From Marivirga sp. ANT-B6 (GTDB lineage Bacteria > Bacteroidota > Bacteroidia > Cytophagales > Cyclobacteriaceae), in NCBI GenBank assembly GCA_001683905.1, contig LXQK01000017.1, forward strand, positions 49,564 through 96,679: DNA of 47,116 bases, read 5' to 3'. Below are positions 18,599-42,508 of the stretch, one piece after another. Made by a program: the position numbers and the translations under genes. Below the pieces are notes generated by a model. It worked only from the letters and a program-made list of their open reading frames with translations. It was not told where the DNA came from and ran no database searches. Positions within the stretch are counted from its first letter, which is position 1, and the number at the start of each line of letters is the position of its first letter.

Positions 18599-19351
18599 TC
18601 ATATATCGTTCAATGCCCAATCATAGGGATAATAAGTAACTGCATAGGATGCAGGAATTTTTTCTTTACGGTACTTATTCAAATAGGGTAAAATCGATTT
18701 AAAATCACCCTTATACCATTCAAAGATCTGTGAAACTTCAACCTTTTTTTGCCCTTGTTTAACCCTGATAAAATAAGGGTCATTAATAGCCAACTTCGTT
18801 CTTTCCTCTAGTTGCTGCTCTATCTTGCCAGCTTCATATGCAAAAGGAGCAATCTTAGGACAACCTTTTGCCGCGCATACAACGGCAAAATGTATTCGTG
18901 CATCCTGATACGGTTCCAGCAATTTCTTCTTCTCAAGTTCATTTAACGTCAGCTTTTCACCAGCAACCTGGTACTTTACTTTATCAAAAAGGCCAGGTAT
19001 ATCCATGGGAGACTTAACAGGATACTTTGAAGCAATGGCCTTGATCACAATCAAGTTATAGGCGTTAATATAAAAAGCCTTCAGCTCGTCTTTGCTAGCA
19101 CTATTAAGATCTGTTGTAGCTACCACCTGTATTAGCTCCGCCAAATCCTGCGGGTTATTTTTTATTTTTTCATAGTCAACCATTCCCCCGGAAGTATAAT
19201 TTCCTAAGAAATCGTTGATGTCTTTGGTAAACGTTGTGTTGGCAAAACCCACCACGCTCACTGAAAACTGCAATAAATAAGCAAACAAAATTTTCATCAT
19301 CTGGGTGGCAATTTTTGCCTTAATCATCCTGCAAACCAATGAGCCTTCCAC
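18599..19351 (-). CDS. DUF547 domain secreted protein (start probably 19297 or 19300)
   Basis: AFYINAYNLIVIKAI, IHFAVVCAAKGCPKI, IFEWYKGDF; signal peptide after internal Met. Confidence 0.85.
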   Translation of the reverse strand: MEGSLVCRMIKAKIATQMMKILFAYLLQFSVSVVGFANTTFTKDINDFLGNYTSGGMVDYEKIKNNPQDLAELIQVVATTDLNSASKDELKAFYINAYNLIVIKAIASKYPVKSPMDIPGLFDKVKYQVAGEKLTLNELEKKKLLEPYQDARIHFAVVCAAKGCPKIAPFAYEAGKIEQQLEERTKLAINDPYFIRVKQGQKKVEVSQIFEWYKGDFKSILPYLNKYRKEKIPASYAVTYYPYDWALNDI

Positions 19352-30869: not shown

Positions 30870-31256
30870 TTATCGCTTACTGAACTGGAATTTTCTTCTT
30901 GCTTTTCTTCTACCGTATTTCTTTCTTTCGACCATACGCGGGTCTCTAGTAAGCCAGCCTTCTTTCTTCAAAGGAGGTCTGTTCTCTGCACTTATTTCTA
31001 CCAATGCTCTGGCTATGGCCAACCTGACAGCTTCTGCTTGCCCCTTAGGTCCACCACCTTCGACATTAATATTGATATCGTAGTTGCCTACTTCTTTCAA
31101 TAAGTTTAAAGGTTGCTTGATGATTGTTTGCAGGATTTCAGAAGGAAAATATGTTTTAAATTCCTTTTTATTCACCTTAATATCACCTTTACCAGCATGT
31201 ACGTAGATCCTGGCTACCGATGTTTTTCTTCTACCGATTGTGTTAACAACTTCCAT
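30870..31256 (-). CDS. rpsI: 30S ribosomal protein S9
   Basis: GRRKTSVARIYV; ARALVEI; C-terminal GRRKARRKFQFSKR. Confidence 0.98.
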   Translation of the reverse strand: MEVVNTIGRRKTSVARIYVHAGKGDIKVNKKEFKTYFPSEILQTIIKQPLNLLKEVGNYDININVEGGGPKGQAEAVRLAIARALVEISAENRPPLKKEGWLTRDPRMVERKKYGRRKARRKFQFSKR

Positions 31257-32593: not shown

Positions 32594-32835
32594 ATCGGCA
32601 AAACTACAAAATTCATCGAGAAGTTTTGCTATGGATTTTCCCTTTGACCTAAGTTTCCGATCGAAGGTCTTGCGATAGGTGAAAACTCTGAAGAACCAGT
32701 CATCTCGTAAAATCTAACTGCTGTGCCTTTCAAAATGCATCTGATTGCTGATAATCTTTCGACCAAATTATTTTGAAGATGTAAGGATTAAGTATTTTTA
32801 GCCGGTGGATATCTTATTCCTGTCATTTTCTTGCG

Positions 32836-32928
32836 TTGGGCTGCGCCAGGGATCGGAGCGAAAATCACGGCAAGGGTGGGATTTGCCAGGGCCCGTAATT
32901 GTAGCGGAGAGCCCGCCCGGGCGCCCAA
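32836..32928. repeat. GC-rich structured intergenic element, resembling a dispersed Bacteroidota intergenic repeat
   Basis: Outer stem TTGGGC…GCCCAA, inner stem GGCAA…TTGCC, boxes AGGGATCGGAGCG (32848-32860) and TAGCGGAGAGCCCG (32902-32915) in AT-rich spacer. Confidence 0.5.
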
Positions 32929-33126
32929 ATTATTGATTCTAAAAGACCTGACTGCCTCCAAGGTGTTTACTTTTTTCTTTATAAAGGTATATAGTTAAGA
33001 AGGCTGTTTCCATAAAGGGCAGATATTGTTATAAAACATGCCGATTTTAGTACATGTAACATAATCGGGAGACAATAGTGGTGGTGCACTAGATTGAATG
33101 TAGAAAAAAAACAATTCTTTTACATA

Positions 33127-35355
33127 ATGATTTTGCACCCGTCATTTTTTAAAGCAACGAAGGACAAACAGGTGAAAAAAGAAGTAAAGTATATAACACA
33201 AATTCCGACGCCAGAAGGCCACCTGCTGCCAGGTCTTTCTGAACAACCACCTATAGAAAAGGTGATCAAGGAGCTTGAAAATAATTTACTATTATTGCAA
33301 CGTGAAAATGACGTACTACGACAGGGTCAAAAGGTCGTGATACAGGCCTTTGAAAAAGCGGATAATAAAAACAGGGAACTTTCGGCCGAAATTCTTCACT
33401 TAAAATATAAGCTCAAAGAAAAATCAGATTTGGCGCTTCTTGTGGGTGAAAATGATGGCACATTGGCACTGGTAAAAGAATGCCGTTCTGAAGAGGAAAA
33501 TAGACATGCTGTTTCTAAAGACAGAAAAAACGAGGTTTTGTACCGCACATTAACACAAAACTTCCCCCACGGCACCATTGAAGTTTTCGACCGGGAATCA
33601 ACCTATATGTTTATAGGGGGCAAAGAACTCGAAGTTTTAGGTCTGAAAGCCGAGGAAATGGTGGGAAAAACACTTTTTGACTTTTTCGAAAGAGATACAG
33701 CGTTGAAGATCAGACATTACCATCAAAAAACATTTGAAGGCACGTCTACGTCATTTGAATTTACATTCCAGGACCGATTTTACGAAGCCCATACCATACC
33801 GCTTCCCGAAGAAGATGGCAGGATTAACAATATCATGTCGGTGGTAGAGAACATCACGATGCGTAAAATGGCCGACAAGAAATTGATCGCGTCGTATAAG
33901 TCGCTGGCGGATTTAAAAAATGCACTTGACATTGCATCGCTTGTATGTATACTCGACAGCGAAGGGCGTTTTACTTATGCTAACTATAATCTGTGCCAGA
34001 AAAGTGGCTATACTTTTAATGAACTGATCGGGCAACATTACAGCAAGCTGAATTCCGGCACTTTTCACGCCTCGCTATTTTTCAAAAGAATAGCCTCCAG
34101 CGCCCGAAAGGGCAAATATTGGAAGGGTGAATCACGTATTATTGCCAAAGATGAGTCGTACTGCTGGCTTGAAACTTCACTTGTCCCGTTCATGGGCAAC
34201 AATAATGAGCCGGTACAGTATCTGTGCATCAGTTATGATATTTCTGAGCGGAAGATTGCTGAGAAGAAGATTAAAGAAAACCAAAAACGGTTACAGGAAG
34301 CTCAACGGATTGCAAAAATGGGCAGCTGGCAAATTGTAGTTGGTAGTAAAGAAATTCAATGGTCTGAAGAGACTTATAATATATTAGGATTTGATCACAA
34401 ACAACCAATACCTGCGTTGGAATGTATCTGGCAGCGGATCTGTCCGAAAGACCATCGGCGACTGGAAAAAGCCATTGCAAATATCGTAAGCAAAGCTACA
34501 CCGTTCAGCATCGATATCTGCGTGATAGGAGAAGGAGTAGAAATGAAATATGTGCATGTGATCGGTAAACCTATTCTCAATCAGCACAAAAAGATCGTAG
34601 CGATCAGTGGCACCCTTACCGACATCACGGATAGGAAGCATACCGAAAGTATGCTCAAGGAACAAAACGAACAACTTAAGAAAATCAATTCGGAACTCGA
34701 CGAGTTTGTCTATAGCGCCTCACATGACCTTCGTGCCCCCTTGGTTTCCGTTTTAGGTCTGATTAATATTATGAAGCTTGAAAAAGGCGAAAACATAGAC
34801 CAATACCTTGAGATGATGCGTAAAAGCATCTACAAATTGGATAAATATGTTCAGGATATTACCGACTACTCACGCAATGCGAGAGTGGACCTGCACTATG
34901 GAGATATCAACTTTATAGAACAGGTGTCCGAGACCCTGGATGGACTGCGTTATATGCAGCATGCTGAAAAGGTGAAAACGACCGTCGACGTCACACAATC
35001 GGTTCCTTTTACGACCGACAGCCGCCGATTATCGATTATTTTAAGCAACCTGGTATCCAACGCGTTGAAATATAGTATCGACCAAAATGAGAAGCCGAAA
35101 ATTGCGATAAAAGTATCAGTATGTGAAGCAAAAGCGGTGATTTACATCAAAGACAATGGACAGGGAATAGATGCCGAACATCACGAAAAGATCTATGATA
35201 TGTTCTACCGGGCTACAGATAAAAGCAACGGCTCTGGTCTTGGATTGTATATTGTGAAAGAGACTTTGCAAAAATTAGACGGAAGCATCCAGGTAAAGTC
35301 AGCCCCCGGAAAAGGATGCTGTTTTATGGTGACTATCCCCAATTCGTTCAAGTAG
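33127..35355 (+). CDS. Multi-PAS sensor histidine kinase, apparently cytoplasmic
   Basis: PAS/PAC-like segments, H-box ASHDLRAPLVSVLGL, IILSNLVSNALKYS, IKDNGQGID, GSGLGLYIVKE; ATG 33127 preferred to TTG 33094. Confidence 0.93.
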   Translation: MILHPSFFKATKDKQVKKEVKYITQIPTPEGHLLPGLSEQPPIEKVIKELENNLLLLQRENDVLRQGQKVVIQAFEKADNKNRELSAEILHLKYKLKEKSDLALLVGENDGTLALVKECRSEEENRHAVSKDRKNEVLYRTLTQNFPHGTIEVFDRESTYMFIGGKELEVLGLKAEEMVGKTLFDFFERDTALKIRHYHQKTFEGTSTSFEFTFQDRFYEAHTIPLPEEDGRINNIMSVVENITMRKMADKKLIASYKSLADLKNALDIASLVCILDSEGRFTYANYNLCQKSGYTFNELIGQHYSKLNSGTFHASLFFKRIASSARKGKYWKGESRIIAKDESYCWLETSLVPFMGNNNEPVQYLCISYDISERKIAEKKIKENQKRLQEAQRIAKMGSWQIVVGSKEIQWSEETYNILGFDHKQPIPALECIWQRICPKDHRRLEKAIANIVSKATPFSIDICVIGEGVEMKYVHVIGKPILNQHKKIVAISGTLTDITDRKHTESMLKEQNEQLKKINSELDEFVYSASHDLRAPLVSVLGLINIMKLEKGENIDQYLEMMRKSIYKLDKYVQDITDYSRNARVDLHYGDINFIEQVSETLDGLRYMQHAEKVKTTVDVTQSVPFTTDSRRLSIILSNLVSNALKYSIDQNEKPKIAIKVSVCEAKAVIYIKDNGQGIDAEHHEKIYDMFYRATDKSNGSGLGLYIVKETLQKLDGSIQVKSAPGKGCCFMVTIPNSFK

Positions 35356-35543
35356 TACTACGCCACCCTTTTCAGGTTCACTTTTTGACGGGTGGCTGGC
35401 AATATTTGTCGAATTTTATACCGGCATACGCCAGGAATATCCTATACCTGCCAACTTTAAATTTTATATCTCCATCTCAATATATTGGCAAGCATTCACT
35501 ATATTTGCGGCACGAAAAATACTATCCTTAAAAGCATAATCTT

Positions 35544-36659
35544 ATGATCATTGGTGTTCCGAAAGAGATAAAAAATAATGAAAATAGAGTGGCCCTCACA
35601 CCCGCTGGTGCCAAAGAGCTTACAAAGCATGGCCATACTGTGTATGTACAATCCAGTGCAGGAGAAGGCAGTGGCTTTTCTGATGAAAAATATGCAGGTG
35701 CTGGTGCCACCATACTTCCTGACATCGCTGCTGTTTATTCAATCGCCGATATGATCATCAAAGTAAAAGAGCCGATATCGCAGGAATATAGCCTTATCAG
35801 GGAAGATCAGTTGTTGTTTACTTATTTTCACTTTGCATCGTATGAGCCCTTGACCAGGGCGATGATTGCCAATAAAGCCGTATGCCTTGCCTATGAAACG
35901 GTAGAAAAGCCAGATCGCAGCTTGCCACTTCTCATTCCGATGTCGGAAGTTGCCGGGCGTATGGCTGTACAACAAGGCGCAAAATACCTTGAGAAGCCAT
36001 TGAAGGGCCGTGGCATATTGTTGGGCGGCGTACCAGGCGTTCCGCCAGGCAGGGTGCTGATATTGGGTGGTGGTGTAGTGGGTACACAAGCGGCAAAAAT
36101 GGCTGCTGGTCTTGGTGCTGAAGTTACGATCATGGACGTAAACCTGCAGCGTTTGCGTTACCTCAATGACATCATGCCAGCCAATGTAAAAACTTTGATG
36201 TCTCATGAATATAATATCCGCGAGTTGATTCAGACGCACGATCTAATTGTCGGCGCGGTGCTTATTCCTGGCGCAAAAGCGCCCCATCTTGTTACCCGGG
36301 ATATGTTAAAGGACATGCGACCTGGAACTGTAGTTGTCGATGTAGCTGTAGACCAGGGAGGTTGTATCGAGACTTGCAGGCCTACAACGCACGAAGATCC
36401 TACTTATATCATCGATGATGTGGTACATTATTGTGTGGCTAATATGCCTGGTGCAGTACCCTATACTTCTACGCTTGCCCTTACCAATGCCACGCTTCCT
36501 TACGCAATTCAGCTGGCCAACAAAGGTTGGAAGAAGGCTTGTAAAGATTCGTCTGACTTGAAACTAGGGTTAAATATTATAAATGGCGACGTAGTATACC
36601 AAGGTGTTGCGGAAACTTTTAACCTGCCCCTACACGATGTTAACTCGTTCTTGAATTAG
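35544..36659 (+). CDS. ald: Alanine dehydrogenase
   Basis: MIIGVPKEIKNNENRVALTPAG; VLILGGGVVGTQAAKMAAGLGAEVTIMDVN. Confidence 0.97.
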   Translation: MIIGVPKEIKNNENRVALTPAGAKELTKHGHTVYVQSSAGEGSGFSDEKYAGAGATILPDIAAVYSIADMIIKVKEPISQEYSLIREDQLLFTYFHFASYEPLTRAMIANKAVCLAYETVEKPDRSLPLLIPMSEVAGRMAVQQGAKYLEKPLKGRGILLGGVPGVPPGRVLILGGGVVGTQAAKMAAGLGAEVTIMDVNLQRLRYLNDIMPANVKTLMSHEYNIRELIQTHDLIVGAVLIPGAKAPHLVTRDMLKDMRPGTVVVDVAVDQGGCIETCRPTTHEDPTYIIDDVVHYCVANMPGAVPYTSTLALTNATLPYAIQLANKGWKKACKDSSDLKLGLNIINGDVVYQGVAETFNLPLHDVNSFLN

Positions 36660-40788: not shown

Positions 40789-42417
40789 TTATGTTTGAAT
40801 AACGCCAACGTTGAATTTTTCCGTGATAGGCGCATGGTCTGCAGCTTCAATTCCCATAGAAATAACTTTTCTGGTTTCTTTCGGATCAATGATACCATCT
40901 ACCCAAAGGCGCGCCGCTGCGTAATAGGGGCTTAGTTGGTCATTGTATTTGTCGGTAATCTCTGCCAGCATCTTATCTTCATCTTCTATGGTCAGCGCGT
41001 TGCCCTTCCTTTTCAAGGCAGCGACTTTGATCTGCAGGAGCGTTTTGGCGGCTGCGGCACCACTCATCACTGCCATTTGTGCGGTTGGCCACGCATAGAT
41101 CAAGCGCGGATCGTAAGCCTTTCCGCACATGGCATAATTGCCGGCGCCGTAGGAGTTGCCTAGAATGATGGTGAATTTAGGGACGACAGAGTTAGCCATG
41201 GCATTGACCATTTTAGCACCATCTTTGATGATGCCCCCATGCTCGGCGCGGCTACCCACCATAAAGCCACTTACATCCTGCAAAAAGACAATAGGAATTT
41301 TCCGCTGATTACAGTTCATGATAAACCTGGCAGCTTTATCAGCAGAGTCGGAATAAATAACACCGCCCATCTGCATCTCACCTTTTTTCGATTTCACTAC
41401 TTTGCGCTGGTTGGCAATAATACCTACCGCCCAACCATCTATTCTGGCAGTGCCGCATAATAGCGACTTGCCATACAACGCTTTATACTCTTCAAATTCC
41501 GAGTTATCAACCAGCCGTTCGATGACTTCACCCATATCATAGGGTTTTACCCTATCTTGAGGAAAAATACCGAAAAGATCTTCCACATCTTTTTTAGGAG
41601 CCGCAGGTGTCTTTCTGTTAAAGCCCGCCTTGCTGTCATATCCAAGCTTATCAAATATACCCCTGATGGCATCGAGGCATTGCTGATCATTGTCATATTT
41701 ATTATCGGTAACACCAGAGATTTCACAATGGGTTGTCGCTCCCCCCAGGGTTTCATTATCGACGGTTTCTCCAACTGCCGCTTTTACCAGATAGCTGCCT
41801 GCCAGGAAAATCGAGCCTGTCTTGTCCACGATCATTGCCTCATCGGACATGATCGGAAGATATGCTCCCCCTGCTACACAGCTGCCCATGATCGCAGCGA
41901 TTTGTACTATGCCCATGGCAGACATTTTCGCATTGTTCCTAAACTGGCGGCCGAAATGCTCCTTATCAGGGAAAATCTCGTCCTGAAGCGGCAAAAATAC
42001 GCCGGCACTATCTACCAGGTATATGATAGGCAATCTGTTTTCTATAGAAATTTCCTGGGCGCGAAGATTTTTCTTTGCTGTAATCGGGAACCACGCTCCT
42101 GCCTTCACCGTGGCATCGTTGGCTACAATTACACACTGCCTTCTATTCACGTAGCCAATGCCTGTAACTACGCCAGCCGAAGGGCAGCCGCCGTATTCTT
42201 CGTACATGCCTTCGCCGGCAAAAGCACCCACTTCCAAAAATTCCGATTCAGGATCAACCAGGTATTGTATTCTTTCACGCGCTGTTAACTTTCCCTTTTC
42301 ATGCTGACTCTTGATCTTCTTTTCTCCACCACCCAAATAAACTTCTTTGAGTTTTTTATCAAGTTGATAACATAGCAGTTTTAGGGAATCTTCGTTTTTG
42401 TTGAATTCTAAATCCAT
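40789..42417 (-). CDS. Acyl-CoA carboxylase beta subunit, methylcrotonyl-CoA carboxylase-like
   Basis: KGKLTARERIQYL, FPITAKKNLRAQEISIENRLPIIYLVDSAGVFLPLQDEIFPDKEHFGRQF, GSCVAGGAYLPIMSDE. Confidence 0.92.
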   Translation of the reverse strand: MDLEFNKNEDSLKLLCYQLDKKLKEVYLGGGEKKIKSQHEKGKLTARERIQYLVDPESEFLEVGAFAGEGMYEEYGGCPSAGVVTGIGYVNRRQCVIVANDATVKAGAWFPITAKKNLRAQEISIENRLPIIYLVDSAGVFLPLQDEIFPDKEHFGRQFRNNAKMSAMGIVQIAAIMGSCVAGGAYLPIMSDEAMIVDKTGSIFLAGSYLVKAAVGETVDNETLGGATTHCEISGVTDNKYDNDQQCLDAIRGIFDKLGYDSKAGFNRKTPAAPKKDVEDLFGIFPQDRVKPYDMGEVIERLVDNSEFEEYKALYGKSLLCGTARIDGWAVGIIANQRKVVKSKKGEMQMGGVIYSDSADKAARFIMNCNQRKIPIVFLQDVSGFMVGSRAEHGGIIKDGAKMVNAMANSVVPKFTIILGNSYGAGNYAMCGKAYDPRLIYAWPTAQMAVMSGAAAAKTLLQIKVAALKRKGNALTIEDEDKMLAEITDKYNDQLSPYYAAARLWVDGIIDPKETRKVISMGIEAADHAPITEKFNVGVIQT

Positions 42418-42508
42418 GAATAAGTTAATTGAGCTTATGCTAAATAAAAAAATCTTTTGGTGAGCAAGACGGTCATCTTAATCACCAATAACAGAAGAAA
42501 AAGAAAGC

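Follow-up and report, generated by a model that had tools for sequence, protein, structure and literature searches.

Flavo-1 RNA (RF01705) was described by Weinberg et al. in 2010 (PMC2864571) and is listed as one of the most abundant bacterial small-RNA families (PMC9029176). In the literature since that description, no reported function of Flavo-1 was found. Rfam files the family as "Gene; sRNA", whereas the orientation of the copies, the promoter analysis and the pattern of dispersal speak for a dispersed DNA repeat. REP elements with their RAYT systems (PMC6006769), of which examples exist in Bacteroidota, resemble Flavo-1 in being intergenic and multi-copy, in that one strand folds, and in showing no target duplication. 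The MITE-like sequences RU-1 and RU-2 of enterobacteria (PMC2759123) are likewise intergenic, dispersed and about 100 bp long. STAXI is another structured motif, and its authors also raised the possibility of folding as single-stranded DNA (PMC2864571).

Flavo-1 differs from REP elements in being longer (~90-110 nt), in forming a three-way junction and in being present also on plasmids and viral contigs. A cognate RAYT gene does not reliably adjoin it, the few close neighbours being confined to one family, and the REP foot GT[AG]G was not found at the base of the hairpin, where the bases just before the outer stem are mostly T or C. Unlike in MITEs, no target duplication is seen, and what is constrained is a strand-specific fold inside the element, not the terminal inverted repeats that tie a MITE to a known transposon. 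STAXI differs again in consisting of tandem pseudoknots near DNA-handling genes in Enterobacteriales, and we know of no sequence or fold relation between it and Flavo-1. We lean slightly towards reading Flavo-1 as an interspersed, strand-specific structured DNA repeat of a REP-like kind, which would fold as single-stranded DNA, and not as a small RNA gene.

The copy from which this reading starts lies in a window (the whole stretch of DNA analysed) of 47,116 nucleotides. Two boxes had been picked out in the original prediction, and both were located exactly there: box 1 (AGGGATCGGAGCG, 32848-32860) and box 2 (TAGCGGAGAGCCCG, 32902-32915) each occur once in the window at two or fewer mismatches (chance expectations 0.62 and 0.10, respectively) and sit inside a single folded unit of about 32,836-32,928. 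The neighbours of the island are a minus-strand pseudouridine synthase gene (start 32593) and, from 33094 on the plus strand, a PAS histidine kinase gene. An Rfam scan of the window at the gathering threshold gave zero matches, and a permissive scan returned the island as a full-length match (1-76) to RF01705 with 31.6 bits (E 5.8e-5), below the curated gathering cut-off of 42 bits. A covariance model, R1, was built from aligned copies of the window genome and its relatives. Because this training set contained the window copy, a second model, R2, was built from 36 copies of other families only, with no sequence of the window's family in training; since R1 served to collect and align the R2 copies, R2 is independent in its sequences and not in its starting structure. 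R2 recovers the window copy with 66.6 bits (E 7.6e-14) over model positions 1-113 of 113, as the sole match in the 47 kb. Judged by these matches, the window copy is a diverged Flavo-1 member. It is an ordinary representative of a known family, and the interest lies in the reinterpretation of that family. In one relative (G017, locus L291), the element is directly upstream of an alanine dehydrogenase gene, and the same gene comes one gene further on in the window (32843-36659); this neighbourhood may reflect common ancestry of the site.

The R2 match extends over 32827-32939 of the plus strand, thus taking in the conserved flanks, and all parts described here lie on that strand. The outermost stem, P1, is a 5-bp helix with its 5' strand GCGCC at 32843-32847, recognised by pair changes on both sides across copies, and its 3' strand GGCGC at 32920-32924, placed by the R2 match and followed by a conserved tail CC(C)AAA. 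Variants of P1 among the copies include GCGGC/GCCGC, GCGTG/CACGC, GCGCC/GGCGC and GCAGC/GCTGC, and the element ends read GCGTG...CACGCCC or GCGCC...GGCGCCC. The outer stem TTGGGC/GCCCAA that had been proposed overlaps P1 in its bases and is at best an extension of it, the conserved stem being GCGCC/GGCGC.

P2 comprises, in order, GGG/CCC, an A.G mismatch, two pairs, a 3x3 loop, two pairs, a second 3x3 loop and the upper stem. Its 5' strand begins with box 1 (GGG, the A.G mismatch, the UC pair position, the GGA loop and GC), and box 2 forms its 3' strand. In the first 3x3 loop, GGA (32855-32857) faces GGA (32906-32908), and the closing G.A/A.G is kept in 26 of 27 copies; in the second, GAA (32860-32862) faces GTA (32901-32903), with G.A in 27/27 and A.G in 26/27. 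These loop-closing mismatches are near-invariant, in contrast to the surrounding Watson-Crick pairs, many of which vary at both partners. The pair 32854/32909, which is C-G in the window copy, is A-U or U-A in most copies. The upper stem pairs AAT-C-ACGG (32863-32870, C unpaired) with CCGT-A-ATT (32893-32900) and carries an apical loop (32871-32892) that is freely variable in length and sequence. Most of the proposed inner stem GGCAA/TTGCC falls within this loop and finds no comparative support.

A short linker (32916-32919) marks the site where most copies have an extra hairpin, P3, which is absent in the window copy. Among inserts of at least 9 nt, 68 of 74 can form a P3 stem of at least 3 bp, whereas 200 shuffles averaged 26 such inserts and never exceeded 34. 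P1, P2 and P3 make up a three-way junction under strong pairing constraint on one strand. The full fold therefore exceeds the Rfam model, which covers P2 only and leaves P1 and the usual P3 outside. With Rfam's Flavo-1 the window copy shares the core stem, the GNA/GNA loops and the invariant positions over the full length of the match; it differs in scoring below the gathering cut-off, and its P1 is outside what the Rfam model describes.

The covariation score was 0.534 in alignment A1 (27 copies), 0.562 over 102 distinct copies with 443 double-change cells (slid structures at most 0.113) and 0.392 in the independent set (36 copies of other families). Paired cells amounted to 92-94% across the three covariation sets, and slid structures scored no higher than 0.13 throughout. 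Alignments A3 and A5 were fitted to the structure and are biased towards it; A1 is a plain sequence alignment and agrees with them. Minimum-energy folding of the window element was unremarkable (z +1.0), probably because much of the stem has non-Watson-Crick G-A geometry, to which the energy model gives little credit. A strict text pattern for the boxes overlooked almost all copies. A covariance-model search and a covariation test, checks of the kind that the original prediction had proposed, yielded both further copies and strong covariation, and the box pairs that it described from intergenic regions of many Bacteroidota are Rfam's Flavo-1 and its relatives.

Copies are dispersed within genomes and patchy between them. 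The window genome (83% complete) holds at least 37 copies by R2, for which 150 of 797 candidates were scored, and 21 places by the Rfam model at E ≤1, two of them above the cut-off. Of 297 genomes of the phylum, 54 had R1 matches, and the number per genome ranged from zero to at least 12. A deeper search of eight complete genomes gave 25-32 copies in six and 4 and 9 in the other two. Named Flavobacterium genomes are among the carriers (L334, L354, L356 and L366), and the large genus g67 is probably Flavobacterium. Twelve recent copies in one genome (G183) show an edge jump from a background of ~0.25 to an identity of 1.0 at both ends (GCGTG; CACGCC), and no direct repeat or target duplication was seen at these ends by eye.

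Mobile replicons also carry the element. In PLSDB, 78 plasmid records had a match, nearly all from Bacteroidales; Bacteroides conjugative plasmids have one or two copies each, and p5482 of B. thetaiotaomicron (NC_004703.1) has two on the minus strand (18631-18741 and 31034-31144). In CP103173.1, a copy (42351-42456) is directly beside a small recombinase gene. The element was also found on IMG/VR viral contigs, where its neighbours include a head maturation protease gene and a microvirus-type replication gene, and it had no match among INPHARED phages. Some of the adjoining viral ORFs are terminase-like by motif, for which PHROGs and Pfam give no confirmation. On viral contigs whose next ORF runs antisense to the element, the element's 3' end is within 20 nt of the ORF's stop in 10 of 14 cases, several of these contigs being related. 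Such a position directly behind an opposite-strand stop codon is frequent at the IMG/VR loci L374, L376, L378, L381, L399, L405, L406 and L408; in L408, a 5.7-kb contig, the element is behind the microvirus-type replication gene.

The composition of the stems indicates which strand folds and hints at its chemistry. Across copies, 16 pair positions contain G-U (G-T in DNA) 29 times and A-C three times. Since a cruciform in which both strands matter would equalise the two, it is the strand given here that folds, and not a symmetric cruciform. G-U accounts for only 1.9% of pairs, which is low for an RNA. P3 triloops are GNA in 21 of 29 cases, next to one GNRA tetraloop and zero UNCG tetraloops, and GNA triloops closed by C-G are exceptionally stable in DNA. 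The rarity of G-U and the GNA loops of P3 are suggestive of DNA, the copies not being independent of each other. The flanks of the folded strand are A-rich on the 3' side and T-rich on the 5' side across copies.

According to the Rfam filing, Flavo-1 copies would be trans-acting small RNA genes, each giving a short structured transcript to which a protein may bind via the GNA/GNA stem. A strand-specific fold with superb covariation, in which G-U is far commoner than A-C, is in line with such genes, and some Flavo-1 matches in the transcriptome of F. psychrophilum are inside transcribed 5' regions (PMC9723704). In that same transcriptome, however, matches occur in sense as well as in antisense, and many are outside transcribed regions (PMC9723704). 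A Bacteroidota-type promoter was present upstream in its full version in 1 of 81 copies, and there is no conserved promoter or -7 box; a motif, TTTTGAAAATG, recurs upstream in some Flavobacterium-like copies only. Furthermore, some orthologues at the udk site leave only ~12 nt between the element and the next start codon, and the ~30-40 copies per genome are dispersed, with ends that proved sharp where they were examined. We consider small RNA genes an unlikely explanation. Among the options named in the original prediction, non-coding RNA, repeat or terminator, "repeat" fits best; the RNA option matches the Rfam filing and goes without a conserved promoter or a consistent orientation, and the terminator is unsupported.

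Single chromosomal sites show how copies behave over time. The gap between udk and divIC contains the element, in intact or altered condition, in 27 of 30 Flavobacterium-like genomes; it lies antisense to the genes, and orthologous copies show compensatory changes (alignment A4; P1 excluded). Two of the three genomes in which it is missing have a terminator-like hairpin instead (by eye). This retention and the compensatory change suggest a function in place, and not mere spread, and in that respect are points against the DNA-repeat reading. In L216, L223, L224, L231, L237 and L238, a second small repeat (approximately GAAGTTCACTGAAC...AAGTGAAGTAA) is inserted within the Flavo-1 element of the udk-divIC site. 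At a site between a ferritin-like and an aminotransferase gene, the gap contains the element in all genomes examined, in the same position and orientation in all but one; it is inverted in G438 and decayed to a remnant in G424, and its interior switches among discrete fold types between genomes. Retention at the same site, fold-type switches and inversion therefore indicate that the copies are old, that the fold is mostly kept and that modules are exchanged. In loci L435, L436, L443, L444 and L445, from four Flavobacterium-like genomes, a gene of ~350-370 aa separates the element from the downstream aminotransferase gene and begins close to the edge of the element.

The fold-type swaps at one site, together with the clearly degenerate copy in L445 at the ferritin-like/aminotransferase site, would also be expected of a selfish repeat without host function, the apparent constraint of which comes from copies converting or replacing each other. 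A selfish repeat fits poorly with the compensatory changes seen within orthologous copies and with the long persistence of the element at fixed sites, and we regard it as quite improbable.

A further possibility is an action in cis on messages, as a terminator, an RNA-processing site or a regulator of neighbouring genes. In its favour, copies between co-directional genes tend mildly towards the 3' end of the upstream gene, 44 of 67 being closer to its stop codon (p 0.014), and the terminator-like hairpins that replace the element at two udk sites point the same way. Orientation towards the neighbouring genes is nevertheless random (38 sense, 29 antisense, p 0.33), the gene-pair configuration of copies equals the background of gaps (p 0.67; background from six genomes), and divergent gaps are not significantly depleted of copies. 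An intrinsic terminator was rejected for the window copy, which has no T-run past the stem on either strand and gave an empty terminator scan. Cis action thus appears still more doubtful than a selfish repeat.

Returning to the single-stranded DNA repeat, its fold would act when its strand is single-stranded, as in replication, conjugation or viral DNA. An enzyme acting in trans might then recognise the folded strand and copy or move it in a REP-like manner, with insertions tolerated mainly between genes. In a more specific and tentative form, Flavo-1 could be a structural repeat of single-stranded DNA that forms a three-way junction bearing GNA minihairpins of DNA type, is recognised by an enzyme on Bacteroidota chromosomes, conjugative plasmids and phages, and has its fold modules exchanged between copies in place. 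Should Flavo-1 prove to be a DNA repeat, many of the small RNA genes annotated in Bacteroidota would not be genes, and the chromosomes, plasmids and phages of this phylum would share a mobility or DNA-processing system that has yet to be described. The extended model, the exchanges of type at the same site and the plasmid copies make the DNA-repeat reading directly testable in laboratory strains of Bacteroides and Flavobacterium.

A mobilising enzyme was looked for among Y1 and group-5 RAYT genes, and none was found. No consistent preference for a replication strand was seen in a hand tally of four of the six complete genomes with coarse skew sampling. IS200-type Y1 genes were rejected as mobiliser, as they are found about as often in genomes that have the element as in genomes that lack it. 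In three genomes of the window genome's family, the element is ~180, 230 and 730 bp from a Y1 gene; two of these genes are group-5 RAYTs, the third encoding a shorter Y1 protein, and group 5 was for this reason tested directly. At 80 group-5 RAYT loci (flanks up to 8 kb), four elements were within 1.5 kb and seven further out, an approximately twofold excess that is not significant, and most sampled loci were bordered by a distinct hairpin repeat of their own. That Flavo-1 is the cognate REP-like repeat of group-5 RAYT transposases (TnpA-REP subclass 2.6), as the three close neighbours and the mostly Bacteroidetes distribution and "atypical" flanking structures of this subclass (PMC6006769) would allow, is very improbable given these 80 loci, their own hairpins and the existence of element-rich genomes in which no Y1 gene was found. 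The hairpin around group-5 RAYT genes (L294-L371) is typically GCGCGAGCGTC...GCTCGTGCC, often inverted between the two sides. The window genome (G000) itself contains remnants of broken group-5 RAYT genes at C225:15857 and C118:905 (L024 and L025).
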